Source of the DNA: Hyalangium ruber
Lineage (GTDB): Bacteria > Myxococcota > Myxococcia > Myxococcales > Myxococcaceae
Direction: 5' to 3'
Length of the DNA stretch: 64,000 nt
NCBI RefSeq assembly: GCF_034259325.1
Contig: NZ_JAXIVS010000009.1
Span: 310,001-374,000, forward strand
Below are positions 1 to 14,849 of the stretch, in pieces. The notes beneath the pieces were generated by a model. It did no database searches, was not told where the DNA came from, and worked only from the letters and a program-made list of their open reading frames with translations. The translations under genes were made by a program, and so were the position numbers. Within the stretch, counting starts at the first letter, position 1; the number at the start of each line of letters is the position of its first letter.

Positions 1-88
1 CGGCCGAATCGCTCCAGAGGATGACGGTCGCGCAAGTGACAAGGGCAGCCCCCATGGTGGGCCGCCCACTTCGTCTGTGGGGTGACAT
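1..88 (-). CDS. 5' end of an exported protein, runs off the left edge
   Basis: An ATG at 88 opens a frame that stays open to the edge of the window. An AGGAG-type ribosome site lies about 8 nt upstream. The 29 visible residues begin with a basic stretch (HRRSGRP) followed by a hydrophobic run (GAALVTCATVILW), which looks like a signal peptide. It follows the cysteine-rich secreted protein at 205-612 on the same strand and may share its transcript. Nothing of the mature protein is visible, so no function can be assigned. Confidence 0.45.
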   Translation of the reverse strand, partial: MSPHRRSGRPTMGAALVTCATVILWSDSA

Positions 89-204
89 GACTCCGCTCCT
101 GGGTGGACGAGCCAGCCGCCGGAGCACGAAGTCCCCAGCAACGGGCAGAACCCGACCGGCGGGCACACTCCCGTCGGTCGTGCCTTAGCGCACGTGTGCA
201 GGGC

Positions 205-612
205 TCAGATCAGGTAGGAGCAGTTCTGGAGGTACAGAGGCGGTGCGGTGGCGCGGTGAACGCCCCGAGTGCGCACCCACGGTGTAGGCAGCAATTCCGG
301 TGCTGGAGGAACCGTGGGTGCTACTTGCTGCGCTACCACCACCGGGAGGGGCGCCCACGCGCTTCCGGAGGTTGCAGTGGCGGTCGGCTCGGGGGCGAGC
401 TGGGCTTTCAACTCGCCACAGCACGTCCCATGCTCGCTCGAGACACAGGCGTCCGGCAGCCGTTGTACGGCCTGTGAGTGATCGCAGCAGCACGTCAGGT
501 CGAACTGCACACTGCCATGGCACAGGTGGAACAGTCCCTCGACAGCCCCTACCGCTGGGGGCAGTCCCAGAACGACCACCAGTGTCAGTGCGCGCAGCGC
601 CATCACGAGCAT
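205..612 (-). CDS. Small secreted cysteine-rich protein, function unknown
   Basis: About 135 aa. The N-terminus (MALRALTLVVVLGLPPAVGA) is a clear signal peptide. It is followed by a Cys-rich segment (HLCHG, LTCCCDHS, ACVSS, GTCCGE), a Pro/Ala-rich middle, and a conserved-looking end PPLYLQNCSYLI. I chose the ATG at 612; TTG at 615 and ATG at 603 are also possible, and no strong Shine-Dalgarno separates them. Clustered His and Cys suggest metal binding or disulfides outside the cytoplasm. From memory, similar small proteins sit beside metal transport or TonB-type genes in myxobacteria, but that is weak context. It is probably the first gene of a short unit continuing into the partial gene at 88. 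Confidence 0.6.
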   Translation of the reverse strand: MLVMALRALTLVVVLGLPPAVGAVEGLFHLCHGSVQFDLTCCCDHSQAVQRLPDACVSSEHGTCCGELKAQLAPEPTATATSGSAWAPLPVVVAQQVAPTVPPAPELLPTPWVRTRGVHRATAPPLYLQNCSYLI

Positions 613-615
613 CAA

Positions 616-997
616 CGAACGAGATAGCCCGGCAGTTACACGTCGCGCAACACCGATGAGGAGAGCCAGTTCCTCCTACACCATGTAGGCAAGCGCTGAG
701 TGACCGCGGACGGACGGACTCACCCTAGGGCCTGGGCAGTCCGTCCGCCCTGATCCCGCAGTCGGATCTCGAAGAGTCAACCTGCCCTTGTGGACGGTCG
801 CCCAGCGGGCAGGCGCGCAAGGGCAGTGACATGACGCTGCGATCCGTTGCCGTGCAGTGAAGGGGCTTTCACATTTGGTTCACACGGCGCGGTCGTGATG
901 GCTGGTGCGCTCCGATCTGGAGCGGCGGTCTCCCGCCTATGCGAGCTGCATGGGCGGGGGCGCTTACTGCGCTCGTGCCAATTTCCGGGAGAACCCA
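616..997. other. Intergenic region ahead of the ubiquitin-like operon
   Basis: This 382-bp gap separates the leftward secreted-protein gene from the rightward Ubl operon, so it should hold divergent promoters. It contains a short hairpin (CCTAC/GTAGG, 675-688) and the larger inverted repeat listed separately at 711-747. I see no convincing -35/-10 pair and no open frame with coding character. Confidence 0.5.
711..747. repeat. Inverted repeat upstream of the Ubl operon
   Basis: Two perfect 10-bp arms, CGGACGGACT (711-720) and AGTCCGTCCG (738-747), are separated by 17 nt. No T-run follows on either strand, so it does not look like an intrinsic terminator. It lies about 250 bp before the Ubl start and could be an operator for a dimeric regulator or a transcript hairpin. 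Confidence 0.45.
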
Positions 998-1261
998 ATG
1001 TCCAAGGAAGGCAAGTTCATCGAGCTCATCTTCGTCGTGAACGGTGAGGACACGCCGGTCAAGTTCAACATCAAGGAGCCCCTCCACGCAGCGCGCAACA
1101 AAGCCTTGGCCGAGAGTGGGAACACGGGGCGTCCTCCTCACGAGTGGGAGGTCCGCACTGAGGCAGGCGTGCTGCTCGAGGCGAGCGCGAAGCTGGAAAG
1201 CCTGGGGCTCCAGTCAGGTACGCGGCTGTTTCTCTCGTTGGGAGTGGGTGGAGGAGGGTGA
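998..1261 (+). CDS. Ubiquitin-like modifier, DUF2604-like
   Basis: 87 aa. The ATG at 998 follows a GGGAGA ribosome site. The sequence reads as a beta-grasp fold: a beta strand (FIELIFVVNGED), a second strand (VKFNIKEPL), a helix (HAARNKALAE), and a late strand (GTRLFLSLG). The protein ends GVGGGG immediately before the stop. A bare C-terminal Gly-Gly is the form used for adenylation by an E1, so no processing protease is needed for maturation. The next two genes are E2-like and E1-like and a JAMM peptidase lies opposite. That context, together with resemblance to the DUF2604 Ubl family of bacterial conjugation operons (family memory), supports a protein modifier rather than a sulfur carrier. 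Confidence 0.8.
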   Translation: MSKEGKFIELIFVVNGEDTPVKFNIKEPLHAARNKALAESGNTGRPPHEWEVRTEAGVLLEASAKLESLGLQSGTRLFLSLGVGGGG

Positions 1262-1262
1262 C

Positions 1263-1910
1263 ATGCGAGTGGAGCCAGCGGTTAGCCGCGCGAAGTTCGA
1301 CGCGGAGATCCGACACCTCGACGAGCAGGTGGCTCCGCTGCGGAGGTGGGGCTGTTGGGTGCAGCGCGCGCGCTACCCGGAAGTGGACGTCGTCTTCGTG
1401 CCGCGCACGCCCTTACGGATCTCGTTCTCCGTTCCGGTGTCTGGAGGGCTGATCGGCCAGGCGAAGCACGCGGTCGCACACGCACGGGAGGCTGAGCTCT
1501 CGGTCTTGGCGGCCCGGGCCTTTGGCGTTCGAGTGCTGATGGACGACTACGATCAGCGTGCTCCTTCTGTCACCTTCCGCGATCCGTGGACGTGGGAGTT
1601 GCTCTCGTTCGACGAGATGCTCCGGGCAATCCTGGTGGATGAGAAGGGCAACACGCGCCCTGTCCTGGTGGAAGCCCATCCGGTGACGAAGCAGCCCTTT
1701 CTGTGTCTGAGAGGGACGCGCGAGTACCACGAGCACCCTCAGCATTCAGGAGACGACTGGGTGCTGTTGCGCGGCGGCTTCGGGCTCTTCTCCTTGCTTT
1801 CAACCGTTTGGAGGACGTGCGTGGAGAACGCACGTCCCCACCTGCTGCTGAATCCACCGGCCCAGGTGCAGGTTCAATGGGAGCCGGTGGCTTCCAGGCG
1901 GATGAGGTAG
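1263..1910 (+). CDS. E2-like conjugating protein of the CEHH type
   Basis: 215 aa. The start lies one base after the Ubl stop, and its ribosome site GGAGGAGG lies inside the codons for the Ubl glycine tail, so the two are translationally linked. The C-terminal third holds a motif with C148, E154, H156, H158 and H161 (PFLCLRGTREYHEHP), matching the Cys-Glu-His-His pattern of the family I recall as Metal_CEHH in DUF2604 operons. C148 is the obvious candidate to receive the Ubl thioester. The N-terminal 140 residues alternate strands and helices compatible with a divergent E2 fold. The role as E2 is inferred from operon order (Ubl, E2, E1) and the motif; it has no detectable similarity to eukaryotic E2 enzymes by eye. 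Confidence 0.65.
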   Translation: MRVEPAVSRAKFDAEIRHLDEQVAPLRRWGCWVQRARYPEVDVVFVPRTPLRISFSVPVSGGLIGQAKHAVAHAREAELSVLAARAFGVRVLMDDYDQRAPSVTFRDPWTWELLSFDEMLRAILVDEKGNTRPVLVEAHPVTKQPFLCLRGTREYHEHPQHSGDDWVLLRGGFGLFSLLSTVWRTCVENARPHLLLNPPAQVQVQWEPVASRRMR

Positions 1911-1916
1911 GAACTC

Positions 1917-3452
1917 ATGGCACTGGCGCGTTTCTTCGAGCGCGTTTTTAGGGCTGCTGGCCGGGCGCTCGTCGTCTCGCGCGAGACGCTGGAGACAGCC
2001 CTGGGCAGCCAGGTAGTGGCCGTCCAGTGTGGCGCGGCATGTGCTGCGGAGGGGAACGCTCGATGGATCGCCGAGCTCCTCGTCAATCTCCTCGTCAGGC
2101 TCTACCCCCGCCTGGCCATCGCGTCGGAGCTGCCGGACGTCCGCGAGCATCTGATCGGCATCGCCAAGTCCATCAACCCGGCGGTAGATGTCGAGGACGC
2201 GACCGGCGCCACCGTCACGGTGGTGGTGGGCAGCGAGGAGTCCTCCCACCCGAACACGATCTATGCCCGCGCGGATGGGTGGGTGGCGCGCGTTCTGTTC
2301 CAGCCTTCGAGGAGCCCGCTGGGGCCGGCCAACCCGTATGCGGCAGCGGCTGCGGCCGCGCTCGCAGCTGCGGAAGTCTTCCGTCGCGTCTTTCGCGACC
2401 GCCTGCCGACGCAGCAGGAGCCCCGGGAAGTCAGCCTCTCTCTGCTGGATTTCAGCGAGGAGGCGGGGGCCGAAGAGCCATTGGGGCCAGCAGACGTCGG
2501 GCAGGTGGTGATGGCTGGCCTCGGAGCTGTGGGCAACGGCGCGCTGTGGGCGATGGGGCGCCATGCGTCGCTCACCGGTGAGGTGTGGCTCGTGGACCAC
2601 GAGACCGTCGAGCTCTCCAATCTCCAGCGGTACGTGCTGGCTGCAGACTCGGACGAGCGTGCCGCGAAGGTGGACCTAGCGGACGCCGCGCTCCGCCACA
2701 CAGGTCTGCGGCGATACCTATGCAGGGAGACGCTGGAGAGCTTCGCCGAGCGCTTCCGCGAGGGCTTCACCTTACCTACGGTGTGCGTGTCCGTGGACAA
2801 CGTGCCCAGCCGACGTGCGGTGCAGGCGCTGCTGCCGCGGCTGGTGCTCAATGGGTGGACAGGCGACATGAGCCTGGGAGCCTCCTGGCACGAGTTCGAC
2901 CGGGAGGCTGCGTGCCTGTCCTGCCTCTATCATCCCAACGGCCCCAGGCCGAGCCAGACGGACATGGTGGCCGAGGCTCTCGGACTTGACCCGGAGCGAG
3001 CAGGAAAGCTGTGGATCAATGCGGAGGCTCCAGAGCCAGAGGAACTGGTGCAGATGGAAAAGCACCTGGGCCTCAAGCCTGGGGACCTCAGTGGGTGGCG
3101 TGGAAAGCCGCTGGGTGACATCTACACCGGAGTCATCTGTGGCTCGGTACGGCTGGATGTGCAGGGACTTGGACGCGTCGAAGTTGTTCCGCTCGCGCAT
3201 CAGTCCGTGCTCGCAGGCGCCCTCATGGCGGCTGAACTGGTGAAGCGGTCAACGCCCTCACTGGGGGCCCGAAGTCAGCATCAGGTGCTGACGGTGTGGG
3301 AGGACGTGCTGCGTCGGCCACCCCCAGCGGGCCGGTGGTTGCGCGACCGGTCGCGTGAGCCTGGCTGCATCTGCGGCGACAAGGTGTACCAGGAGGTCTA
3401 CCAGAGGAAGTGGCGCACGGTGGCAACTCCAGGGGACATGGCGCCCCGGTGA
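1917..3452 (+). CDS. E1-like Ubl-activating enzyme (ThiF family)
   Basis: 511 aa, six bases after the E2-like gene. Residues 1-190 form an extra N-terminal domain. The ThiF/E1 adenylation domain starts near 195 with GLGAVGNG (201-208), then D227 (LVDHETVE), the NLQR signature (N235, R238), K251 and D294 (SVDN). Two cysteine pairs (C333/C336 and C484/C486) can bind the structural zinc seen in this family; one of the cysteines could instead be the catalytic residue. The expected reaction is ATP-dependent adenylation of the Gly-Gly end of the Ubl, then transfer to the E2-like protein. The stop lies only 12 bp from the stop of the convergent JAMM gene. Confidence 0.85.
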   Translation: MALARFFERVFRAAGRALVVSRETLETALGSQVVAVQCGAACAAEGNARWIAELLVNLLVRLYPRLAIASELPDVREHLIGIAKSINPAVDVEDATGATVTVVVGSEESSHPNTIYARADGWVARVLFQPSRSPLGPANPYAAAAAAALAAAEVFRRVFRDRLPTQQEPREVSLSLLDFSEEAGAEEPLGPADVGQVVMAGLGAVGNGALWAMGRHASLTGEVWLVDHETVELSNLQRYVLAADSDERAAKVDLADAALRHTGLRRYLCRETLESFAERFREGFTLPTVCVSVDNVPSRRAVQALLPRLVLNGWTGDMSLGASWHEFDREAACLSCLYHPNGPRPSQTDMVAEALGLDPERAGKLWINAEAPEPEELVQMEKHLGLKPGDLSGWRGKPLGDIYTGVICGSVRLDVQGLGRVEVVPLAHQSVLAGALMAAELVKRSTPSLGARSQHQVLTVWEDVLRRPPPAGRWLRDRSREPGCICGDKVYQEVYQRKWRTVATPGDMAPR

Positions 3453-3464
3453 GGGGCAGCTCCT

Positions 3465-3965
3465 TCAGCCCACCAACTGGAAGATCTGGCGCGTCACAGC
3501 TGGGGAGACCTCCTGCCAGCGCGCGTTGCGCAGTCGGTAGACCGCCCAGCCGGTCGGAGTGTGCTCGGTTCGCGCGAAGTAGGGGACGACGAGTGAGAAC
3601 CCGCCCTCGATAGCGACGATGGCGTACTTGTCGTCCATTGCTGAGTGGTACGCCTCAGTAGGGTGGCTGTGGATTTGGGCAATGAGTCGCAGGCGCTTAT
3701 CGCTCAGGAACCGGTTGAGGTTGAACAGCGTCTCCGAGCTGAGGAAGTAGCCGATGCCATCTTCGGAGCGGATGGACTCCTGGGGGGGAACGAGGCAACT
3801 CTGGATGGTGGCCACCGTGCCCTCGATCTGGCCCACCCAGAGCACCAGCCCCTCATTCCCTTCGCGTCCGAAGTCCTGGAGGACACGAACGGTCTCTGCC
3901 AACGCCCTGTGAGGAAGATGGACGACTTCCACACCGTCAAGGGGGGATCTTTTGGCGGTCTGCAT
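3465..3965 (-). CDS. JAB/JAMM metalloprotease, predicted Ubl deconjugase
   Basis: 166 aa from the ATG at 3965; a longer reading from 4073 adds a low-complexity tail that I doubt. It has the complete JAMM zinc signature: E38, H99-x-H101-P (QIHSHP), S108 and D111. Such enzymes cleave isopeptide or C-terminal bonds of ubiquitin-like proteins. It is on the strand opposite the Ubl-E2-E1 genes and converges with them tail to tail, so unlike the usual co-directional layout it must be transcribed from its own promoter to the right. With the other three genes it completes a four-component conjugation/deconjugation set of the type recently tied to antiphage defence (BIL/Bub operons, from memory). Confidence 0.85.
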   Translation of the reverse strand: MQTAKRSPLDGVEVVHLPHRALAETVRVLQDFGREGNEGLVLWVGQIEGTVATIQSCLVPPQESIRSEDGIGYFLSSETLFNLNRFLSDKRLRLIAQIHSHPTEAYHSAMDDKYAIVAIEGGFSLVVPYFARTEHTPTGWAVYRLRNARWQEVSPAVTRQIFQLVG

Positions 3966-4135
3966 TCCTGGATCGTACCACGCTGAGTGCTGTACCCAGC
4001 CTGGTCGGCTGGGGAGCGTGGGTCTCAACGCATCCAACGAGGAGGGAATGGGCAAGAAGGTCCTAGAGGCCATGAAGCTCGGAAAGCCGCTGACGCTAAG
4101 GGCTACTGCTCATGATGCAGATGGCACGTCAGGGA

Positions 4136-4384
4136 TCAGGTTGTGAGCGACATCGGCCTTAGCAGGAATGTGGCGGGCTCAGTGCCCACCCCTTTGACCG
4201 TCGCCAGGTGTTGTAGCTCCGCCTGGGTCAGCACCACTGCGTCGTAGCCGCCCTTCTCCATCGTTGCCAGGAACCATGTCCAGTTGGCCGCTGTGGACGG
4301 CGCCGTCTCCGAGGTGTGTGCGTCCTCGATCAGCTTAGCTGCCTCTGCTCCCAGCCGATCATTAGCCAGTGCGTCCGCCTCCAA
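4136..4384 (-). CDS. Doubtful 82-aa reading frame, possible gene remnant
   Basis: The frame opens with TTG at 4384 and lacks a clear ribosome site. Its composition is protein-like (KLIEDAHTSE, TWFLATMEKGGYDAVV, LTQAELQHL), better than most shadow frames in this GC-rich DNA, so it could be the tail of a decayed gene. I recognise no family. Confidence 0.25.
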   Translation of the reverse strand: MEADALANDRLGAEAAKLIEDAHTSETAPSTAANWTWFLATMEKGGYDAVVLTQAELQHLATVKGVGTEPATFLLRPMSLTT

Positions 4385-4397
4385 GGCGGGATGGTCG

Positions 4398-4415
4398 GGT
4401 ACCCTTATGGGTACC
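4398..4415. repeat. Short perfect inverted repeat ahead of the AAA operon
   Basis: GGTACCC (4398-4404) and GGGTACC (4409-4415) flank a 4-nt TTAT loop, about 290 bp before the AAA+ start. No T-run follows. It could be an operator or a chance palindrome. Confidence 0.3.
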
Positions 4416-4703
4416 TGCAGACGGCAACAGACGCGGAGCTGTTCGCGGGGGGGGAGAGCCGCGTCACAACGGCTTGGACCGGAACGGTGTGCTTGAGGGT
4501 TGGAGATGCGCAGCCGTCCTGCTGATCGCGGGCAGTCCGCGCGCGAGCCACAAGCAGATCGGTCCAGAGCTGATGCTGTTTTCTCAGGAAGGCGTTACCG
4601 TTCCACTTCGGCAGGTGGACCGAGCTGCGAGCCATGCCGTGGAGTGTCGGTAGGTCGTCGCCAGCCACAACCAGGCAAGGCAAGGAGAGACGTGGGGAAG
4701 CAC

Positions 4704-6569
4704 ATGGTGGCTGAGAACTCCTTCGAGAAACCACGATGGTTGCGCGATCTGCTGCGTTTTCTGCCGCTCAAGAGCCAGTTCGTGCTCTCGGGCAATGTGC
4801 GTGACCTACAGCTCTTCGAAGCTGGGCCCGGCGTGGTGACCCCACGGCCCATGCTCCAGGTGCTGGCAGCGGAGCTGCGCGTCGCGGGATACGCACACGT
4901 GGTCTCCTATGACCCGGTTGCGGGATTCAGGGTGATAGGGCTCCCCGGCGAAGCCCCCTCACTGGGGGCGGACCTGTTGAAGCAACTCGGCCTGGAGGCG
5001 GCGAACGGGACGGCTCCCGCTGGCCTTGAGCTCTTCGCGGAGACCCTTCAGCGGGCCGTTGGTCGCTCGGGAGACCCAATTGCGGTAGTGGCCGACTTTG
5101 CCTCACGCATGGTTGTGCGCACCGCGGCTCTTTCTGGACCGGAGCATCAGGCGTTCACGCGGGCACTGGTACTATCCCACCAGGCACGGTCACGTCCGCA
5201 TGGCACGCCTCCGCGCCCCTTTTTCAACACGGTGCTCTGGGTCGTCGACAAAGAGGGAGACCTGCCTGACTGGCTGCTTGTCGACAACCCGCGGATTCGA
5301 CACGTGCCCATCGCCAAGCCCGATCATCGAGCCCGGCGGCCTCTTGCCGCTTCCCTGCTGCGAAGTCTTGAGGGTTATCGCGAGGCGGATCCTCACGCGG
5401 CGGGAAGGGCGCTGGATGACTTTGTCGACCAGACCGAAGGTCTGCTGCTGGTGGACCTCACCTCCATCGTTGAGCTTGGCCGGACGGAAGGGCTGGGCTT
5501 CGCCGAGATTGCGGACGCTGTCAGGCGCTACAAGGTTGGCGTCACCGAGGATCCCTGGCGGAAAATTGACCGCGCGAAAGTGCGGGGAGCAACGGACTTT
5601 GTTCGCAGCCGTGTGAAGGGGCAGGACCACGCGGTTGTCCACATGCTCGATATCGTCAAGCGGGCCGTCACGGGCGTCGGTTCTCCCCGCCGGGGGAGCC
5701 GACCGCGTGGCGTTGCCTTCCTCGCGGGGCCCACAGGGGTTGGTAAAACCGAGCTCGCGAAAACCATCACCAGCCTGCTCTTCGGAGACGAGGGTGCGTA
5801 CATTCGTTTCGACATGTCCGAGTTCAGCGCGGAGCACTCCGACCAACGCCTCATTGGTGCGCCGCCGGGCTATGTCGGGTACGACGTCGGGGGGGAACTC
5901 ACCAATGCCATCCGGGAGCGGCCGTTCAGCGTGGTGCTCTTCGATGAAATCGAGAAGGCGCACCCACGCATCCTCGACAAGTTCCTCCAAGTCCTCGATG
6001 ACGGCGTCCTGACCTCAGGTCGCGGAGACCGAGTCTACTTCTCGGAAGCCTTCATCGTCTTCACCTCGAACCTCGGCATTTACCGGCTCGAAGCTGATGG
6101 AAGTCGGGTGCCCAATGTCACACCTGAGGATGGCTTCTCAGAGGTTCAGGCTCGGGTTCGCTCAGAGATCGAACGTCACTTCAAGGTCGTGCTCAATCGG
6201 CCCGAGATCCTCAACCGCATCGGTGACAACGTGCTCGTCTTCGACTTCGTGCGTCCCGCGGTGGCGGATCAGATTTTCGCGGGGATGGTGGAGGCGGCGC
6301 TCTCAGATGTCGAGTCCGCGCAGGGCATTGCCGTCACACTCGACGCCACCTCACGCGACCGACTGCGCGCTCTCTGTCTTGCCGACCTGTCAAACGGGGG
6401 CCGTGGCATCCGCAACAAGGTTGAGACGCACCTGCTCAACCCGCTCGCCCGCGCCCTCTTCGATGCGGATGCTACGCCGGGTCGATGTTTCGAAATACGA
6501 GGCGTGGAGACCGGCAGTACAACCACGCTCCACCTTGCTGATGTCGGTATCCCTGGAGCGGTGGCATGA
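4704..6569 (+). CDS. ClpB-D2-like AAA+ ATPase with degenerate N-terminal half
   Basis: 621 aa from ATG 4704; a GTG at 4692 is an alternative start. Residues 1-320 look like a worn AAA-type domain without a P-loop. The C-terminal half is a Clp/Hsp100 second AAA module: Walker A GPTGVGKT (342-349), Walker B with D414-E415 (LFDEIEKAH), and the GYVGYDVGG segment that in ClpB forms the substrate-gripping pore loop. There is no Clp N-domain, no coiled-coil M-domain and no ClpP-binding loop that I can see. It is therefore likely an unfoldase or remodelling ATPase acting on partners encoded next door. It overlaps the radical-SAM gene by ATGA, giving tight translational coupling. Confidence 0.85.
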   Translation: MVAENSFEKPRWLRDLLRFLPLKSQFVLSGNVRDLQLFEAGPGVVTPRPMLQVLAAELRVAGYAHVVSYDPVAGFRVIGLPGEAPSLGADLLKQLGLEAANGTAPAGLELFAETLQRAVGRSGDPIAVVADFASRMVVRTAALSGPEHQAFTRALVLSHQARSRPHGTPPRPFFNTVLWVVDKEGDLPDWLLVDNPRIRHVPIAKPDHRARRPLAASLLRSLEGYREADPHAAGRALDDFVDQTEGLLLVDLTSIVELGRTEGLGFAEIADAVRRYKVGVTEDPWRKIDRAKVRGATDFVRSRVKGQDHAVVHMLDIVKRAVTGVGSPRRGSRPRGVAFLAGPTGVGKTELAKTITSLLFGDEGAYIRFDMSEFSAEHSDQRLIGAPPGYVGYDVGGELTNAIRERPFSVVLFDEIEKAHPRILDKFLQVLDDGVLTSGRGDRVYFSEAFIVFTSNLGIYRLEADGSRVPNVTPEDGFSEVQARVRSEIERHFKVVLNRPEILNRIGDNVLVFDFVRPAVADQIFAGMVEAALSDVESAQGIAVTLDATSRDRLRALCLADLSNGGRGIRNKVETHLLNPLARALFDADATPGRCFEIRGVETGSTTTLHLADVGIPGAVA

Positions 6570-7222
6570 AGCTCGCCCTCTCTCGGTTGCACTATCCTGT
6601 TCACGCACTTGGGCCTGGTGCTCGTATTGGCATCTGGCTGCAGGGCTGCTCGATTCAATGCCCGGGATGTATTTCCGCCGACACCTGGGCGAAGGAGCGG
6701 GGGTGGACGACTGTGGAGATAGTGATGGCAACGGTCGCGCCCTGGCTTGCCCAAGCCGATGGCGTCACCATCAGTGGTGGGGAGCCCTTTGATCAGCCAG
6801 AGGCGCTGCGTACTCTCCTCGTGCGCCTCCGGGCTTCCACCCCCGGCGATATCCTCGTGTATTCGGGTTACCCTTGGGAGGCGCTTGCCGGGCATCTCGA
6901 TGCATGCGCGGGACTCATAGACGCCCTCATCTCCGACCCCTTTGAAGCTCGCGCACCGCAGACCCTGGCGCTGCGCGGCAGCGACAACCAGCGGCTGCAC
7001 TGCCTCACGCCGCTGGGCGAGGCGAGGTTCCGCGCCTACGAGCGTCCACTCGAGGCCGCCGACCGGCAGCTCGACGTTCTATTCGACGAGGACGGCACGG
7101 TCTGGATGGCTGGCATCCCGCACCGAGGTGACATGCAGCGGCTTTCCACACTCCTCTCGGTTGGCGGGCACACGGCTTCGACAACGGAAGCCAGGCCCCT
7201 CAGCAAGAGGCAGCATTCATGA
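6566..7222 (+). CDS. Radical-SAM protein of the NrdG/activase type
   Basis: 218 aa. C28-x3-C32-x2-C35 (GCSIQCPGC) binds the 4Fe-4S cluster, and ISGGEPFDQP is the SAM-binding GGEP motif. The length and opening (WLQGCSIQCPGC) fit the single-cluster activases such as NrdG and PflA. No anaerobic ribonucleotide reductase or other glycyl-radical enzyme is encoded nearby, so the usual job of installing a glycyl radical has no visible target. It could act on a partner within the operon, or make a small modified product. It overlaps both neighbours by 4 nt (ATGA at 6566 and at 7219), showing it is an integral member of this unit. Confidence 0.85.
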   Translation: MKLALSRLHYPVHALGPGARIGIWLQGCSIQCPGCISADTWAKERGWTTVEIVMATVAPWLAQADGVTISGGEPFDQPEALRTLLVRLRASTPGDILVYSGYPWEALAGHLDACAGLIDALISDPFEARAPQTLALRGSDNQRLHCLTPLGEARFRAYERPLEAADRQLDVLFDEDGTVWMAGIPHRGDMQRLSTLLSVGGHTASTTEARPLSKRQHS

Positions 7223-10200
7223 CGCAGCTTCCTGAGCAACTCATCCGCGTGTGCCCACAGTGTGGGACCGAGCGTCCAGCCATGGAAACGCATTGTGAGA
7301 ACCTCCTGGCTCATGGGCGTTGCCAATGGCCACTCTCCGAGGAGGAACTGCGCGTCCAAGGACAGGTGGTCACACGCGCGCCGGAGACTCCCGTCGGGAC
7401 GAGGCCATGGCTCCAGTGCACCAACGGGCATGCTATCGATGCCGGCGACCAGCTATGCCTTCAATGTGGCGCAAGCATCGCGGACACGGCATCCCCCACG
7501 ATCCCGCCTACACCGCCCGCGCCGAAGCTTGTGGGTGGGTGGCAACTGCTTGAGAGAGCCCCCTCCGCTGATGGCCCATGGGAACGGTTCCTTGTAGAGG
7601 ATGCTTCAAGAGGTCATCGCGCGCTGCTTACCCTCTACGCAGCAGGGGCGGAGCCAGACCCGGCGGTGCGTGAGGTGCTGCGGAGAATGCCGCGGGACCA
7701 CATTCCTGAACTCCTGGCCATCGGTCGGCACGAGGGACACGCCTACGAAGTGTTCGAGCACATCGACGGGGGAACGCTTGCTGACGCGGGGTTCTTCGCG
7801 GCGGGCAATCCAGCGGACCTGCGGCGGATGGTCGACGAACTCGGTCGGGCGCTAGCAGGCTTTGCCGAGGTGGGGCTGCGCCACCGCGACGTTCGTCCCA
7901 CGACGATTCTTCTGCGCACACGCGAGCCGCTCGATCTCGTAGTGACGGACTTCGGTTCCGCTCGGCTGTCGGACTTCGACCTGGAATCGGTCGCGCCCTT
8001 GGGGCTGACCCGTTACTCAGCCCCCGAAGTCATTGTGGGCGCCGTGAGTGCCGCCAGCGACTGGTGGAGTCTAGGGATGATTCTGCTCGAGCATGCGACC
8101 GGTGGCGCGTGTTTCACGGGCGTCGATGACCGGGCATTCCAAATTCATGTTGTGACTCGGGGCGTTGACGTCCCTGCGGAACTGGATCCGTCCCTCCGGG
8201 TTCTTTTGCGCGGGCTTCTTGCACGCGACCCGCTGAAGCGCTGGTCCTGGCCCCAGGTGCAGGCGTGGCTTGCGGGCGAACCGGTCGAGGCGTCCGAGGA
8301 CGGGGTTGCCTCACCTGCGGAGACAACGGGGCCAACTTTCACGCTTAAGAGGCGGGCCTTCAGCCGGCCAGAGCTCTTTGCTCTGGCGGCCGCAGAGGCG
8401 CAGAACTGGGAGGAGGCCCGGAGCCTCACCCTGCGCGGCGCCGTTAGCACATGGCTGGAAGAGCGAGGGGTTGACCCGAAAGTGCGGGCGCAGGTCCGCC
8501 GGCTTGCCTCTGATGAGTCCCTCCCAGAGGACTTCCGCCACGCACTTGTCCTCATGGCGATGAATCCCGCCCTGCCCCTTACGTGGGCTGGGGACATCGT
8601 TACCCCCGCATGGCTCCTTGCTCATCCGGAGGAAGGGTACGCCATCGTCACCGGAGGGGTCACACGCCACCTGGAGCAGATGGGGCGTGAGCCATGGCTC
8701 GTCCGGATGCGAACGCGCGCGGAGGCAGTGCGCGAGCGCGCCGGGCTACTTCAGATCGAACTAGATGAGGAGCGCCTACGCGTTGCTCTTCTGGCCTCCT
8801 CCAGGGCGAACTTGGAGGCTGAGCGCACAGCCCTCCGGCGCATCTACCCCGATACCGACCACGCCGGGCTGTCGTCCATCGTCGAGCGGACGCGGCTCAC
8901 TGACGAGGATCTTATCCTCCTGGTCAGCGCGACCTTCCACCAGTTCACCCCCCTCGCTCAGCTCCTCGACCGGGCTGCGGAACTCGCGCTGCGCACCGGA
9001 GTCACACTCGACCGAGCGCAGGCAGAGACGTGGTTCGTGCGCTCCCGGCGCGAGGTATTCGCGGAGGCTGATGCGAGGGTCGCTAATTTCGCGCGCTGCG
9101 GCATCGTGCGGGTGGACGAGTGGGCTGACGCTTTCCGGGTCGAGCGGCGCATGCTCCTTGAGCGTGCTGTTGTCCTGCTCGCCGTGCCGCGAGAGAGGTG
9201 GAAGGAGCCGCCAAAGCAGCAGTACGTCGCGAACCTGCTCGAACTCTTCGAGAAGCGCGTTGCCGGCTCGGTCCAACGAGGACCACTCGTCCGGTTCCTT
9301 ATCGGCAAGACCACCCCGCGCGTCGACCTGACTGAGCTTGGGACGGCGCATCGTCCAGCTGAAGCGCTTCTCGATCACGTGCTTGGGCGCACCGAGGCGC
9401 CCGTAGCTCTTGACCCAGCAGTTCTTACTGACGGCCCTGTTGAGAGCCGCATGCGGAAGTTGGTCAACCACGCGCTGACGTTCCGCCGCGATACAGGCAT
9501 TGATGGGCGCTACCTCGGTTTCCCCTTCCTCGTCTTGCGCCACGGTCGTCAGAGTTCAGCGAGCGCGGCGCCCCGCATCGCCCCCGTTCTGCTGTGGCCC
9601 GTCGCGCTTGAGCTCCAGAGCGGCAGTCGCCTCGGGACCCTTGTCTTCGACCGCGAGCGAGAGGAGGTCCGCCTAAACCCAGCACTTGAGGGGCTCCTTG
9701 AGGCTGCGGAGTTCGCGAAGTGGAAGGCAGCGCGGGATGAGCTCCTTGCGCGCCCTTCCATTCGCCTGGGTGATGTGATGGACCTCTTCGGTACGCTCGC
9801 AACCCCACGTGCCAGAAGGCTCGCCCGGCTACCTAGCAAGGACGTCAAGCTGCCTGCTGGAACACGGGAACTCGCCTGTGCCGCCGCGATCTTCAACGCC
9901 GAGTTCACCGGCCAATCGCTTAGCGAAGACCTTCGTCAGATGCGTCGTATGCCTCCTGCAGGAACGGGATTGGAGGCGGCCCTGCGTGTCTCGGCGGAGC
10001 CGCCGTCTGGCGCGCCGCTCGGCATGGTGCCGGAGCGCGACCGGTTCCTCACAGTCGAGAGCGACCCGTCGCAGGAGGCGGCCGTGCTCCGGTCCCGCAT
10101 GGCTCCGGGCCTCCTTGTCGAGGGGCCTCCTGGTACGGGCAAGAGCCAGACCATCGTCAACATCGTGGCGGATGCTATTGGCCGGGGCGAGTCGGTCCTT

Positions 10201-13200
10201 GTCGTTTGCCAGAAGCAGGCGGCACTACGGGTTGTCGAGAAGCGACTTGCCGCGGAGAGGCTCGGGGACCGCCTCTTCGTGGTCGTCGATGTCAACCGGG
10301 ACAGGGAGTCCATCGTTCGTGCCCTACGCGAGCAGGTGGAGGCAGTCCGGAATGCCGATCCTTCGCGGGCTGCGACTCTGCGGCAGAAGCGCGCAGGGTT
10401 GGCTGGGCGTATTGAAGCCCTGGAGGCGGAGATTGATCGGCACCACCAAGCTTTACACACGGTAGATGGTGTAACTGGCCTGAGCTACCGGGCTCTCCTG
10501 GGAGAACTTGTCGGCCTAGAGACGGGCGGCGTCCCAGTCGATGTTCCTGGGCTGAGACTGCGCCTTGCCGATCTCGATCACGAAAGAGTCTCCCGGCTCG
10601 AGGAGGTATGCGGCCCCCTCGCATCGCCTTGGCTCGAATCCCGCTTTGAGGGCAGTCCCCTCAGCGTCCTCAGCAATTTTCCCGTCGACAAGGGAGTGAA
10701 TGAGGCGTTTCTTCGGGGATTTACGCTCTTCGTTAAGGCAGAGACAGAGCGTCGCGATCTCCTAGCGCGGCCGAGCACATTCGACGTTGACGATCCTGCG
10801 CCCCTCCGCGCCTGGCTTGATGAGCATGGGCGGCTGTTCGAGGTGATGTCCCCCGAGACGCGAGCCCAGCTTGCGGCCTGGCTCGATCTCTTTATAGCGG
10901 GACGCGACGGCGCAGTCTTGGGGACGCAGATCCTCGAGACGCTGGAGAGGGCCGGGGAAACCCTGAGCCGGCTCGACGAGCGCGCCCATGACAGTGCGCT
11001 GTTCAGCATCTTGGCAGCTCTCCCGCCTGGGGAACTCAGGGCGTGGCTCGATACCGCAACACGCGCGACGGCCGAAGTATCTTTCTGGGGTCGGCTCAAT
11101 CCAGGGCGCTGGCAGCAGCGTCGGCGCTTGCGCACCTTCCTCGCTGGTCATGGGGAGGAGCCGACAGAAACTCGAATGGTCGCGCTGCGGCAGGCGCTCG
11201 GCCTCGAAGTGCAACTGCGGACGGTCCGCCGTGAAGTTGCCGAGGTCAGGGAGGCACTGCAGCTCGATGTCCATGAAGCTCCTGCGTCACTTCGGATGCT
11301 CCGCCGCGAGGTCGACGATCTCTTGGCCAGGCTGCGCCCGGTGAAGGACGCTGTCGCTGCGGTTCGGGTGTGCCCTCGCCCAGTAGAGGCCGAGGACATG
11401 GCTCGCTCGGGGACGCCTGAGGGCTACCGCCGCCTCCGAGGGGCCTTCGACAGTGCCTTCGAGCGGCATGCTGCCCGCACGCGGAGCCGCACCGTTCTCG
11501 CGCCGCTTGCCAAGTGGTTCCAGGAGAGTTGGATCGCAGGCTGCGCGCGGAGCATCACACAGGGGAGGGCCACGACCGAGATGCTCTTGAAAATCGTCAA
11601 GGCACTGGGAACGCTGGAGCCGTTTCAACGTTTCCGTGTCCGGGCGAAGGGGCTTGACCCAGAGGCGCTGGCGGTGTTCGCGGCTCTGCGCGACCGTGAG
11701 GATGCGCTGAGGGCGCTGCCCTCGGCCATGCTGGAGGAGCACGTGCGCCGGGTCATCCGGCGAGAGGCGCTTCTTGGCTGGAAGGCACGAATGGAGCAAA
11801 CAAGGCCCGAACTGCTGCTCGAACGGCAGGAACTCGAGCGCAGGGTGCAGAGCCTCGCTGACAGCGACCGGGCGATGCGCGAGCTCAACCGGCAGTTGCT
11901 TGCAGTCGATCTTGATCGCACGCGCCTGAGCACTCCGGTGGCCTGGGATAGCATCACTCGGCTGCGCGGTCCGCGGATGAAGCGACTGCGTGAGATTCTC
12001 GAGCAGGGGGCAGATCTTGGGCTCATGCATCTGCGCCCCATCTGGCTCATGAACCCGGATGTGGCCAGCCGATTGCTACCGCTGAAGGCCCGGCTCTTCG
12101 ATCTCGTCATCTATGACGAGGCTTCACAGATGCCCGTGGAATACGCCGTGCCGACGTTGTTTCGCGCAGGCCGGGTCGTCATAAGTGGCGACGAGAAACA
12201 GATGCCGCCGACGAGCTTCTTCGCCAGCCGCATCGACGGCGATGAGGATGAGGAGTTCGACGGGGAGGAACTCGACGAGGCGGCTACCGAAGCTGAGAGG
12301 TCCGCTTACGAGGAGACTTGGAACCGGCGCGAGGTGAGGGACTGCCCGGACCTGCTGCAACTTGGCCGAGGCGTCCTGCCGACCACCACGCTCCAGATTC
12401 ACTACAGGTCGAGGTACCGGGAACTCATCGGTTATTCGAACGCCGCCTTCTATGGCAACCGCCTCAGCGTGCCTGCTCGTCACCCGGAGGCGGAAGTCCG
12501 ACGCGTGCGCCCCATCGAAGTGCTGCGGGTCGAAGGCGTCTACGCGGACCAGACGAATGCGGCGGAGGCCCAGCGCGTCGTCGATCTACTCGCCGAGGTG
12601 TGGTCGGCAGCGCCCGAGAGTCGCCCTAGCATTGGCGTCGTCACCTTCAACCGCAAGCAGGCGGACCTTGTTGAAGAGGTTCTTGAACAACGCGCAGAGA
12701 AAGACCCCGGATTCCAGCGCGCCTACCAGCTGGAGCGTGATCGCGTCCAGGATGGCGAGGACATGGGTTTCTTCGTCAAGAACGTGGAGAACGTGCAGGG
12801 TGATGAACGCGATGTCATCGTGTTCAGCACTACGTTCGGGCGCGACAGGAACAAGGCGTTCCGGCGCTCTTTCGGTGTGCTCGGCCAAGCGGGTGGGGAG
12901 CGGCGCCTCAACGTTGCGGTGACGCGTGCCCGTCAGAAGGTAATCCTCGTCACCTCCATTCCGGTCAGCGAAGTCTCTGACATGCTGGCGAGCGGACGCG
13001 CGCCGGACAAGCCGCGCGACTACCTACAGGCTTATCTCGATTATGCCCATAGGATCAGCGCGGGCGAACTCAAGCTGGCGCGTGGCGCAACGGCACGGCT
13101 CTCAGCCAACGCGGGCGCACGACGGGATAGGGAAGTCGACCCCGATGGGTTCACTGCCGCGGTGGCTGGCTACATCCGGGAACTTGGCTATGAAGCAGTC

Positions 13201-13473
13201 CCGAAAGACGATGGGGATGCCTTCGGGCTCGACTTCGCTATCGTAGACCCCCGAACGCGGCTCTTCGGGGTTGCCATCGAATGTGATGCGCCGCGCCACG
13301 AGCTGCTGAGTCGGGCCCGGGCGCGAGAAATCTGGCGACCGGGGGTTCTCTCCCGGTCCATCCCTAAGGTGCATCGGGTGTCTTCCCGCGCGTGGTACCA
13401 CCAAGCGGGGGAGGAGCGGCGGCGGCTTCGGGAGGCCATCCACGCGGCACTACGTGGGGAGGGACATTCATGA
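7219..13473 (+). CDS. Zinc-ribbon, kinase-like, SF1-helicase and nuclease fusion
   Basis: 2084 aa. Domains in order: two zinc ribbons (CPQC, CLQC; about 10-90); a protein-kinase-like domain (about 110-355) with HRD at 222-224, DFG at 244-246 and an APE-like motif, but without a recognisable VAIK lysine and with T in place of the catalytic-loop Asn (HRDVRPTTIL); a helical linker; a DUF4011-like segment (about 740-900); an SF1 helicase with Walker A GPPGTGKS (969-976), motif II DEAS (D1633), motif III GDEKQMPPTSF and the C-terminal VAVTRARQ motif; and a restriction-endonuclease-like domain (FGLDFAIVDP, VAIECD with E2021) of the MTES_1575/Vsr type. It resembles the kinase-helicase of Mokosh defence (from memory), with extra zinc ribbons and a nuclease. 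It likely senses and degrades foreign nucleic acid. Confidence 0.85.
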   Translation: MTQLPEQLIRVCPQCGTERPAMETHCENLLAHGRCQWPLSEEELRVQGQVVTRAPETPVGTRPWLQCTNGHAIDAGDQLCLQCGASIADTASPTIPPTPPAPKLVGGWQLLERAPSADGPWERFLVEDASRGHRALLTLYAAGAEPDPAVREVLRRMPRDHIPELLAIGRHEGHAYEVFEHIDGGTLADAGFFAAGNPADLRRMVDELGRALAGFAEVGLRHRDVRPTTILLRTREPLDLVVTDFGSARLSDFDLESVAPLGLTRYSAPEVIVGAVSAASDWWSLGMILLEHATGGACFTGVDDRAFQIHVVTRGVDVPAELDPSLRVLLRGLLARDPLKRWSWPQVQAWLAGEPVEASEDGVASPAETTGPTFTLKRRAFSRPELFALAAAEAQNWEEARSLTLRGAVSTWLEERGVDPKVRAQVRRLASDESLPEDFRHALVLMAMNPALPLTWAGDIVTPAWLLAHPEEGYAIVTGGVTRHLEQMGREPWLVRMRTRAEAVRERAGLLQIELDEERLRVALLASSRANLEAERTALRRIYPDTDHAGLSSIVERTRLTDEDLILLVSATFHQFTPLAQLLDRAAELALRTGVTLDRAQAETWFVRSRREVFAEADARVANFARCGIVRVDEWADAFRVERRMLLERAVVLLAVPRERWKEPPKQQYVANLLELFEKRVAGSVQRGPLVRFLIGKTTPRVDLTELGTAHRPAEALLDHVLGRTEAPVALDPAVLTDGPVESRMRKLVNHALTFRRDTGIDGRYLGFPFLVLRHGRQSSASAAPRIAPVLLWPVALELQSGSRLGTLVFDREREEVRLNPALEGLLEAAEFAKWKAARDELLARPSIRLGDVMDLFGTLATPRARRLARLPSKDVKLPAGTRELACAAAIFNAEFTGQSLSEDLRQMRRMPPAGTGLEAALRVSAEPPSGAPLGMVPERDRFLTVESDPSQEAAVLRSRMAPGLLVEGPPGTGKSQTIVNIVADAIGRGESVLVVCQKQAALRVVEKRLAAERLGDRLFVVVDVNRDRESIVRALREQVEAVRNADPSRAATLRQKRAGLAGRIEALEAEIDRHHQALHTVDGVTGLSYRALLGELVGLETGGVPVDVPGLRLRLADLDHERVSRLEEVCGPLASPWLESRFEGSPLSVLSNFPVDKGVNEAFLRGFTLFVKAETERRDLLARPSTFDVDDPAPLRAWLDEHGRLFEVMSPETRAQLAAWLDLFIAGRDGAVLGTQILETLERAGETLSRLDERAHDSALFSILAALPPGELRAWLDTATRATAEVSFWGRLNPGRWQQRRRLRTFLAGHGEEPTETRMVALRQALGLEVQLRTVRREVAEVREALQLDVHEAPASLRMLRREVDDLLARLRPVKDAVAAVRVCPRPVEAEDMARSGTPEGYRRLRGAFDSAFERHAARTRSRTVLAPLAKWFQESWIAGCARSITQGRATTEMLLKIVKALGTLEPFQRFRVRAKGLDPEALAVFAALRDREDALRALPSAMLEEHVRRVIRREALLGWKARMEQTRPELLLERQELERRVQSLADSDRAMRELNRQLLAVDLDRTRLSTPVAWDSITRLRGPRMKRLREILEQGADLGLMHLRPIWLMNPDVASRLLPLKARLFDLVIYDEASQMPVEYAVPTLFRAGRVVISGDEKQMPPTSFFASRIDGDEDEEFDGEELDEAATEAERSAYEETWNRREVRDCPDLLQLGRGVLPTTTLQIHYRSRYRELIGYSNAAFYGNRLSVPARHPEAEVRRVRPIEVLRVEGVYADQTNAAEAQRVVDLLAEVWSAAPESRPSIGVVTFNRKQADLVEEVLEQRAEKDPGFQRAYQLERDRVQDGEDMGFFVKNVENVQGDERDVIVFSTTFGRDRNKAFRRSFGVLGQAGGERRLNVAVTRARQKVILVTSIPVSEVSDMLASGRAPDKPRDYLQAYLDYAHRISAGELKLARGATARLSANAGARRDREVDPDGFTAAVAGYIRELGYEAVPKDDGDAFGLDFAIVDPRTRLFGVAIECDAPRHELLSRARAREIWRPGVLSRSIPKVHRVSSRAWYHQAGEERRRLREAIHAALRGEGHS

Positions 13474-14849
13474 GCGGGCCAAAGGTTGTCCGGGTCGTCA
13501 CGCGCGAGGAACTGGAGGCTGTGGCGAGACAACAGCTGCAGCTCCTAGTGGATGCGCTCGAGGAGTTGAGGCGCTGCGCGAGACGCCATGGAGCACTCGA
13601 CGAGGCGTTCGAAGCGGGGCTTGAGCAGCGACGAGTGCGCATGGTGCGGCTGTTCGATGAGGCCAAGTGGGCTGCGCTCCAAGGACAGGTGCCCCTCGAA
13701 ATCGCGTTCTTGGTGTCAGAGCGCGACCGCATCCGGGCACAGGCCGTGGCGTCCGTTGAGGCTGAGCGCTCGAAGCGCCAGCGCACGGAGGGGGCTGCCC
13801 GCACTCTCTTGGCGGCGTTCGAGGCCGCCGGGCGAGAGCCGCCAAAGCGCCTTAGGGAGATAGCAGACGGAGTTCAGAGTGCCGACGAGGCGGCACTTGG
13901 GGAGATGCAGGGTGTCCTGACTGATGCATTTCGGCAACTTGCCCCAGCCCCGCGCGCCGGGACTTCGGCAGTTCAGCGGGAGCTTGCTGCGCGTCTCGGT
14001 GCAGGGGAGACCGGTCAGCGATTTGCCGAGTGGCTGGAGGCCCGACCTCGCGCGGCGCCCAGCGATCCCAGCGTCCGACTTAATGCGCTGCTTGCCGAGG
14101 TCGAGGCCCTAGAGGAGCCTGAGGTGGCGCGTCCCTTCCTTGAGCGGGCCGCCGCCATTTCGCGGGAGGTGCAAGAGGGCCGTCGAGCACTCTTGACCGA
14201 CGCCCTCATGCTTGACGTCGGCGCATACCGACGTGCACGGCAGGCACGCGAGGTCGCAGTCGCGAGCCTACGAGAAGTGCGGTGTAGCCTGGCAGCCCTC
14301 GGTACCCCTACGACGCTCGCGCTTGAGGCGCGTATATCCGTAGCGCTGGAAGGAGGTCAGATCAAGGACACCGAGGGACTTCTCCAGGAGGCACGCGTGA
14401 CACTGGAGGTCGAGCGGCGGGAGATGGCCGCAGCAGCCCGGCGCCGGGCGGTCCTCGGAGGACTGGCCGCGCTGGGCTATGAGGTACGCGAGGCGATGGT
14501 GGTGGCTTGGCCGAAGGAGGGGCGGATAATCGTGCGCAAGCCCGGGGCGACCGACTATGGGGTCGAACTTGGAGCACCTGCCGACGCGGCGCGAGTGCAG
14601 ATGCGCCTCGTGGGCTCCGACCGTCCAATGACACCCCGAGGCGCTGGACGGGACCGCGATATGGAGACGATGTGGTGCGCCGAGTTTCAGCAGCTCCGCA
14701 AGTTGGTTGCTGTAAACGGCACAGAAGTTGCCGTCGAGCGGGCGCTTGAGGCTGGCGCTCAGCCGGTGAAGACCGTCTCTCTAGAGTCGTCGCTGCAGTC
14801 AGAGGACGTTGCCCCCACAGGGGCGTCGGTGCGTAGGCCCGCACGGTGA
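13470..14849 (+). CDS. Coiled-coil protein of the AAA/radical-SAM/helicase operon
   Basis: 459 aa, overlapping the helicase stop by ATGA with a strong GGGGAGGG ribosome site. Most of the chain is Arg/Glu/Ala-rich helix with heptad-like spacing, interrupted near 150-175 by a Pro-rich linker. The end (about 345-400) turns into strands (YEVREAMVVAW, GRIIVRKPG, DYGVEL), suggesting a small globular cap. The N-terminus (MSGPKVVRVVTREELE) looks conserved, but I do not recognise a named family. No catalytic motif is visible. As last gene of the operon it may be a structural or adaptor subunit, perhaps the substrate gripped by the AAA+ ATPase. Confidence 0.75.
   Translation: MSGPKVVRVVTREELEAVARQQLQLLVDALEELRRCARRHGALDEAFEAGLEQRRVRMVRLFDEAKWAALQGQVPLEIAFLVSERDRIRAQAVASVEAERSKRQRTEGAARTLLAAFEAAGREPPKRLREIADGVQSADEAALGEMQGVLTDAFRQLAPAPRAGTSAVQRELAARLGAGETGQRFAEWLEARPRAAPSDPSVRLNALLAEVEALEEPEVARPFLERAAAISREVQEGRRALLTDALMLDVGAYRRARQAREVAVASLREVRCSLAALGTPTTLALEARISVALEGGQIKDTEGLLQEARVTLEVERREMAAAARRRAVLGGLAALGYEVREAMVVAWPKEGRIIVRKPGATDYGVELGAPADAARVQMRLVGSDRPMTPRGAGRDRDMETMWCAEFQQLRKLVAVNGTEVAVERALEAGAQPVKTVSLESSLQSEDVAPTGASVRRPAR

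Follow-up and report, generated by a model that had tools for sequence, protein, structure and literature searches.

In the passages of Kaur et al. (2020; PMC7159879) that treat the FtsH ternary conflict systems (vWA-MoxR subsystem 3), a radical S-adenosylmethionine (SAM) gene is noted and modification of a peptide effector is predicted. Here, we examined a 64,000-nucleotide stretch of the Hyalangium ruber genome (contig NZ_JAXIVS010000009.1, positions 310,001 to 374,000; hereafter the window), in which an initial annotation had placed an NrdG-type radical SAM activase without a glycyl-radical partner. We found that the gene is the second of a four-gene operon (AAA+ ATPase, radical SAM protein, helicase-nuclease fusion, and coiled-coil protein) and that this operon is a variant of AAA+-centered conflict systems with an activase-derived radical SAM protein. 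No description of the four-gene operon turned up in the literature that we searched. An activase that lacks its usual enzyme poses a well-defined puzzle; here, the intact active site has been kept in a widespread operon.

The radical SAM gene (6566..7222, forward strand) encodes a protein of 218 residues that matches PF13353 (Fer4_12; 1.3e-24, 87.5 bits, cut-off 22). As the initial annotation had it, the open reading frame (ORF) contains intact C28-x3-C32-x2-C35 (6647-6670, read from the sequence) and GGEP (6776-6787; S-GGEP being residues 70-74), and both are conserved in homologs. The three cysteines and G71-G72-E73 are identical in all 84 aligned sequences, P74 is the same residue in 83, and the whole catalytic set (three Cys, GGE, and GS-D-NQ) is retained in 82 to 84 of them, which argues against a chance motif and suggests catalysis. 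These counts, and those from the 78 aligned coiled-coil proteins given below, take in near copies (e.g., several from Burkholderia) as well as loci with broken or truncated helicase sequences. Coupling by overlap with the AAA+ and helicase genes, likewise proposed at the outset, was borne out: ATGA joins the AAA+ stop to the radical SAM start at 6566, and the radical SAM stop to the start of the next gene at 7219. For the AlphaFold2 (AF2) model (predicted local distance difference test score, pLDDT, 89), the nearest solved fold found by Foldseek was that of the pyruvate formate-lyase (PFL)-activating enzyme (E = 4.9e-6), and VIA-align gave Z scores of 10.7 for the PFL-activating enzyme, 10.5 for QueE, and 8.3 or less for viperin-like enzymes.

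We investigated the constancy of the operon by searching a species-genome collection with an alignment of the window protein and three close relatives (76-83% identical). Of the 145 relatives found, the best 80 (48-70% identical), ranked by radical SAM similarity, were kept. The AAA+ gene lay immediately upstream of the radical SAM gene in all 80 loci, and the fused helicase gene immediately downstream in 79; the exception, L130 (Chthoniobacter), was counted within the 80 despite an arrangement like that of type C (see below). The coiled-coil gene was present in 74 loci, and of the other six, five were contig ends and one (L102) was broken. The flanks varied, no flanking gene family occurring in more than 6 of the 80 loci, so that the four genes are the unit. 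By record titles, the operon is spread over at least six phylum-level groups, including Pseudomonadota, Chlamydiota, Verrucomicrobiota, and Bacteroidota, and copies occur on Rhizobium and Caballeronia plasmids. When the AAA+ N-terminal domain was the sole bait, 17 plasmid records matched, and the radical SAM gene was found in 17 of 17. Of 189 genomes in the phylum of the window, the coiled-coil domain was detected in the four that carry the operon; one further match was marginal (19 bits). We read the radical SAM protein as a core subunit of a self-contained, horizontally spread four-gene system.

Copies on viruses were not evident: among 39 relatives on viral contigs, the best was 42% identical over 142 residues and none was of the window's type, and the phage matches listed were about 33-35% identical and, where annotated, NrdG. 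Escherichia coli genomes searched with a Proteus copy gave no match. Microvirga and Roseomonas plasmids carry coiled-coil genes that adjoin transposase genes and have no radical SAM gene; we considered these as an operon variant and rejected it, as they look like truncated remnants.

The protein shares with NrdG the CxxxCxxC, GG[ED], and GSxNQ motifs and the overall fold family, but it scored 85.1 bits against the NrdG model TIGR02491, whose curated equivalog cut-off is 126.1. In the phylogenetic tree, from which an NrdG2-like frame of one genome (G024) was left out and in which FtsH-type sequences were trimmed so as to begin 28 residues ahead of the Cys motif, the clade of the window (support 98/96) stood apart from that of five NrdD-linked NrdG (98/94); types C and D could not be placed with confidence. 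A single clade of all AAA+-linked radical SAM proteins, as opposed to NrdG and PFL-activase, was neither rejected nor shown (approximately unbiased test, p-AU = 0.28). In addition, most AAA+-linked sequences have a C-terminal extension with G-[IWFL]-P, which begins near residue 150 and reads GIP in the window protein, whereas NrdD-linked NrdG sequences lack it. On these sequence grounds, the window protein is an activase-derived radical SAM protein and not NrdG.

The initial annotation saw no NrdD or PFL-like protein in the window, and this absence holds throughout the genome (43 contigs, 10.77 Mb), in which PF13597 (NRDD) and PF01228 (Gly_radical) had 0 matches each; of 14 control genomes, 6 and 3, respectively, were positive. 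It also held that an NrdD elsewhere in the genome would speak against an orphan activase; none was found, and the orphan reading stands. Among the operon hosts (50 of the 80 loci), 11 had NRDD and 7 had Gly_radical, 12 having either and 38 neither when the two lists were merged by hand. An ordinary NrdG serving an NrdD is what the 85-bit similarity might suggest, but the window genome and 39 of the 50 hosts have no NrdD, and the protein lies outside the NrdG clade and below the curated cut-off, with an extra C-terminal part. We regard this explanation as scarcely credible, and for the window genome it is already refuted unless an NrdD sits in unassembled sequence.

What was not supported was the claim that such an enzyme is unexpected in this lineage. 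In 145 genomes of the window's order, NrdG-like matches occurred in 68, of which 55 belong to its family (its own genome included), and NRDD was found in 7 of the 145 and in none of that family. NrdG-like matches are not unexpected there because such proteins also belong to the FtsH ternary systems of the family. RVxGY-like glycyl-radical motifs, which it had been suggested to look for in the operon proteins, gave no conserved site: no R[VTIAL]xG[YFHW] column was conserved in 90% of sequences in any of the four operon families. The most frequent such column (42 of 84 sequences) is in the helicase fusion, where the window's own protein is without it, and the RVAGY of the window's AAA+ protein is shared by only 10 of 84. 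With an intact active site and no glycyl-radical enzyme found in most of the hosts tested, the radical SAM enzyme should have another substrate.

The three partner genes are also encoded on the forward strand. The AAA+ ATPase (about 621 residues, 4704..6569) matches PF07724 (6.5e-44) and, below its cut-off, the ClpB model TIGR03346 (244 bits); its start is probably the ATG at 4704, not at 4500, to judge from the sequence and homolog lengths. An N-terminal domain without a Walker motif (about 4704-5690) precedes a ClpB-D2-like AAA_2 domain (about 5703-6221), and Walker A and B are retained by no fewer than 93% of the 84 sequences. The third gene (7219..13473) encodes a fusion protein of 2084 residues with Pfam matches to Pkinase, DUF4011, AAA_11, AAA_12, and MTES_1575. 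Zinc ribbons with conserved Cys (about 7246-7473) are followed by a predicted pseudokinase (about 7519-8268, Pfam Pkinase), a superfamily 1 (SF1) helicase with DUF4011 ahead of it (helicase at about 10036-12978), and, at the C terminus, an MTES restriction-like nuclease (about 13150-13440). Of 84 sequences of the kinase domain, 77 have Thr where the beta3 Lys would be and 61 have Gly in place of the DFG Asp, while 72 keep the HRD Asp; the window's own domain has HRD and DFG and is missing the beta3 Lys. The kinase domain is thus probably inactive in most members of this fusion family. The helicase part matched the anti-phage NCBIfam models ProA (2e-148, 496.3 bits, cut-off 1500) and Hhe (2e-89, 300.9 bits, cut-off 2000), in both cases under the cut-off.

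The fourth gene (13470..14849), whose start falls inside the 3' end of the 2084-residue gene (ending at 13473), encodes a coiled-coil protein of 459 residues with an MSGPKVV start and a C-terminal alpha/beta domain (AF2 pLDDT 86). Its Gly336-Tyr337 (14475-14480) and Cys403 (14676-14678) are the same in all 78 aligned sequences and in all 56 of alignment A2, in which they are the sole invariant residues besides Met1 (A2, A3, and A4 comprised 56, 45, and 39 of the available sequences, respectively). No convincing Pfam family was found for this protein, and a fold search of its AF2 model against the PDB gave no match at E <= 0.001.

Other AAA+/radical SAM systems were compared with the window's arrangement, here called type A (AAA+, radical SAM, zinc-ribbon-pseudokinase-helicase-nuclease fusion, and coil). 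Type B, found on plasmids, consists of an SF1 helicase, PIN, coil, AAA+, and radical SAM; type C, also on plasmids, of DUF4011, kinase, coil, zinc-ribbon FHA, radical SAM, AAA+, and PP2C; and type D is a small cluster of a different AAA protein, DUF2997 with or without DUF1257, and a radical SAM gene. The AAA+ N-terminal domain is homologous between type A and types B and C (32-120 bits; shuffles 9 or less). Type B differs from type A in its other effectors (PIN domain), whereas type C has a separate kinase with FHA and PP2C in place of the fused pseudokinase. The order relatives at about 31-43% identity had, among their scanned neighbors, the Pfam families fvmX3-analog, X5, and X6 and an M41 FtsH, by which they are assigned to the FtsH ternary conflict systems. 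In the tree, these FtsH ternary enzymes grouped with type B and part of type D, apart from the window's clade.

A verrucomicrobial contig carries the exceptional locus L130 (1987-7671; AAA+, radical SAM, zinc-ribbon FHA, PP2C, coil, and separate kinase). Its coil is homologous to that of type C (blastp 9e-8), and L130, a deep member of the radical SAM clade, reads as an intermediate between types A and C. The separate kinase of L130 reads HRD-I-K and DFG, whereas the type A kinase is fused to the helicase with its catalytic residues mostly lost and has neither PP2C nor FHA beside it. This fits replacement of a phospho-signal input by a built-in pseudokinase in type A. The coil Gly-Tyr and Cys align again in the type C coil; a G-[YF] and Cys pattern common to type A and types B and D was seen by eye only, the profiles not being significant.

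Several further loci were observed in passing. A chromosomal type B locus occurs in the window's family (L157 in G067, 3-9140; helicase, 890-residue protein, coil, AAA+, and radical SAM), and further radical SAM genes lie near type B loci on Acinetobacter and Photobacterium plasmids (L163, 12299-14655; L164, 1-1913). No type B locus was found in 274 genomes from the class to which a Proteus host belongs, a set that held no positive control. Clusters of AAA, DUF2997, and radical SAM genes were seen on Bacillota and Actinomycetota plasmids (L169, 4676-7543, which includes DUF1257; L168, 3935-7603; L213, 4252-7989). DUF2997/ycf35 genes adjoin ferredoxin in cyanobacteria, according to the part of PMC4284462 that bears on them.

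From its helicase-nuclease relatives, its carriage on plasmids, and weak island signals, we predict for the operon a defensive role directed at mobile DNA or phages. The flanks of 14 of the 80 loci (131 ORFs) contained matches to Wadjet JetC and JetD, IetA, REase_II, HNH, and PDC-S20; 14 control regions (127 ORFs) contained matches to RtcR-like, BrxH, DpdJ, SngC, and HamB models. The Wadjet-like JetC and JetD matches were tallied by family in the flank scan; judging by ORF sizes, we place them in L106 (506-6138), upstream of the Pseudomonas brassicacearum type A operon. Just upstream of the operon in the window is a ubiquitin-like conjugation module (998-4073). It includes a beta-grasp-like protein (PF10790) with GVGGGG at its end, together with Metal_CEHH, a fused Prok-E2_C/ThiF E1 (BilD model, 1.4e-21), and, on the other strand, a JAB-like gene below the cut-off. 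This module was not found beside the operon in the 80 loci or in the three close relatives, which carry the same four genes. Ubiquitin-like genes are also close by on a Rhizobium plasmid, where a coil-gene fragment lies a few kilobases from a multiubiquitin/ThiF cluster (L218, 2822-5203 and 9704-10360).

What, then, could the orphan enzyme act on? The initial annotation offered a protein of the operon as one target, and this we judge the most likely, given a partnerless activase-type enzyme tied to AAA+ and helicase genes. We tentatively favor the reading, in which we place somewhat less than even confidence, that the protein is a protein-modifying radical SAM subunit of a predicted nucleoside triphosphate-driven conflict system whose target is probably encoded in the operon, with the coiled-coil protein as the leading candidate and the AAA+ protein next. 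The small open barrel of the model is nearest the PFL-activating enzyme, whose substrate is a protein, and the pairing of radical SAM with AAA+ genes recurs across types B, C, and D and the FtsH ternary systems. In this scheme, the enzyme would rely on [4Fe-4S]/SAM chemistry and modify one of the proteins encoded alongside it in the operon, most likely the C-terminal domain of the coiled-coil protein with its invariant Gly-Tyr and Cys. The AAA+ ATPase would remodel or present the coiled-coil protein, the modification would license or restrain the helicase-nuclease, and the zinc-ribbon/pseudokinase region may sense a signal. Several observations weigh against it. In the AF2 model, Gly336 follows the helix of residues 301-334, so its invariance may be that of a structural helix cap; the invariant Cys403, modeled within a helix, lends itself to no such structural explanation as readily. 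Profiles did not connect the type A coil with type B coils or with DUF2997/DUF1257 (hhalign probability 9% or less; hmmsearch below shuffled controls), and the target candidate does not appear to be common to all AAA+/radical SAM systems. Furthermore, the enrichment of defense genes in the operon flanks is weak.

Other roles for the enzyme were weighed against the same data. Viperin makes a 3'-deoxy-3',4'-didehydro nucleotide, and a viperin-like antiviral nucleotide, as the initial annotation had also considered, or a base change in the DNA or RNA on which the helicase works would suit an operon centered on nucleic acids (helicase and nuclease) and a fold that is also near QueE and, at Z of about 7 to 8, viperin-like enzymes. 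However, neither NCBIfam nor PADLOC gave a match named viperin, the modeled barrel is short and activase-like, and the constant partner across system types is the AAA+ ATPase and not a nucleotide enzyme; we find nucleotide or nucleic-acid modification unlikely. The protein could instead be a sensor, whose oxygen-labile cluster and SAM would report oxygen, oxidants, or SAM level to the AAA+ ATPase. Some phages destroy SAM, and many of the named operon hosts belong to genera that we take to be aerobic; the radical SAM gene always adjoins the AAA+ gene, and no sequence feature points to a substrate. Retention of the full catalytic set speaks for catalysis and against a pure sensor, a role we think rather unlikely. 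True glycyl-radical activation would put the radical on coil Gly336-Tyr337 and relay it to Cys403, as the activase type of the enzyme and the invariance of just these coil residues invite. Yet glycyl-radical enzymes are 10-strand barrels, whereas this protein joins a coiled coil to a small domain, has no RVxGY context, and presents a Gly336 that resembles a helix cap; in addition, a persistent glycyl radical is destroyed under aerobic conditions and would be lost in many of these hosts. We consider such activation quite improbable. A broader proposal, that the activase lineage was recruited by ATP-driven immune-type machines to place a radical mark or a transient glycyl/thiyl radical on the coil adaptor (Gly336-Tyr337/Cys403), is a speculative one that we would not expect to hold; if it did, radical chemistry would arm the helicase-nuclease, which would then be sensitive to oxygen, iron, and SAM.

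Modification of an operon protein, the reading that we favor, would mean that a helicase-nuclease system has radical SAM protein modification among its control steps. It would also offer a handle on the radical SAM genes of the FtsH ternary systems, whose role is likewise only predicted. With only three partner genes and carriage on plasmids, the substrate question is directly testable.

In terms of known systems, the SF1 helicase/MTES part of the 2084-residue partner resembles the single-protein anti-phage helicases Hhe and ProA (NCBIfam names), but in the partner this part is preceded by zinc ribbons and a pseudokinase, and its scores fall far short of both cut-offs. Profile comparisons linked the operon proteins to neither FtsH M41 nor fvmX, and the coiled-coil protein to none of fvmX3-analog, X5, and X6. 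The FtsH ternary systems, as far as the relevant passages of PMC7159879 describe them, also place a related radical SAM gene beside an AAA+ ATPase and small uncharacterized proteins; their AAA+ protein is FtsH with an M41 peptidase, accompanied by fvmX proteins, whereas that of the window is ClpB-D2-like.

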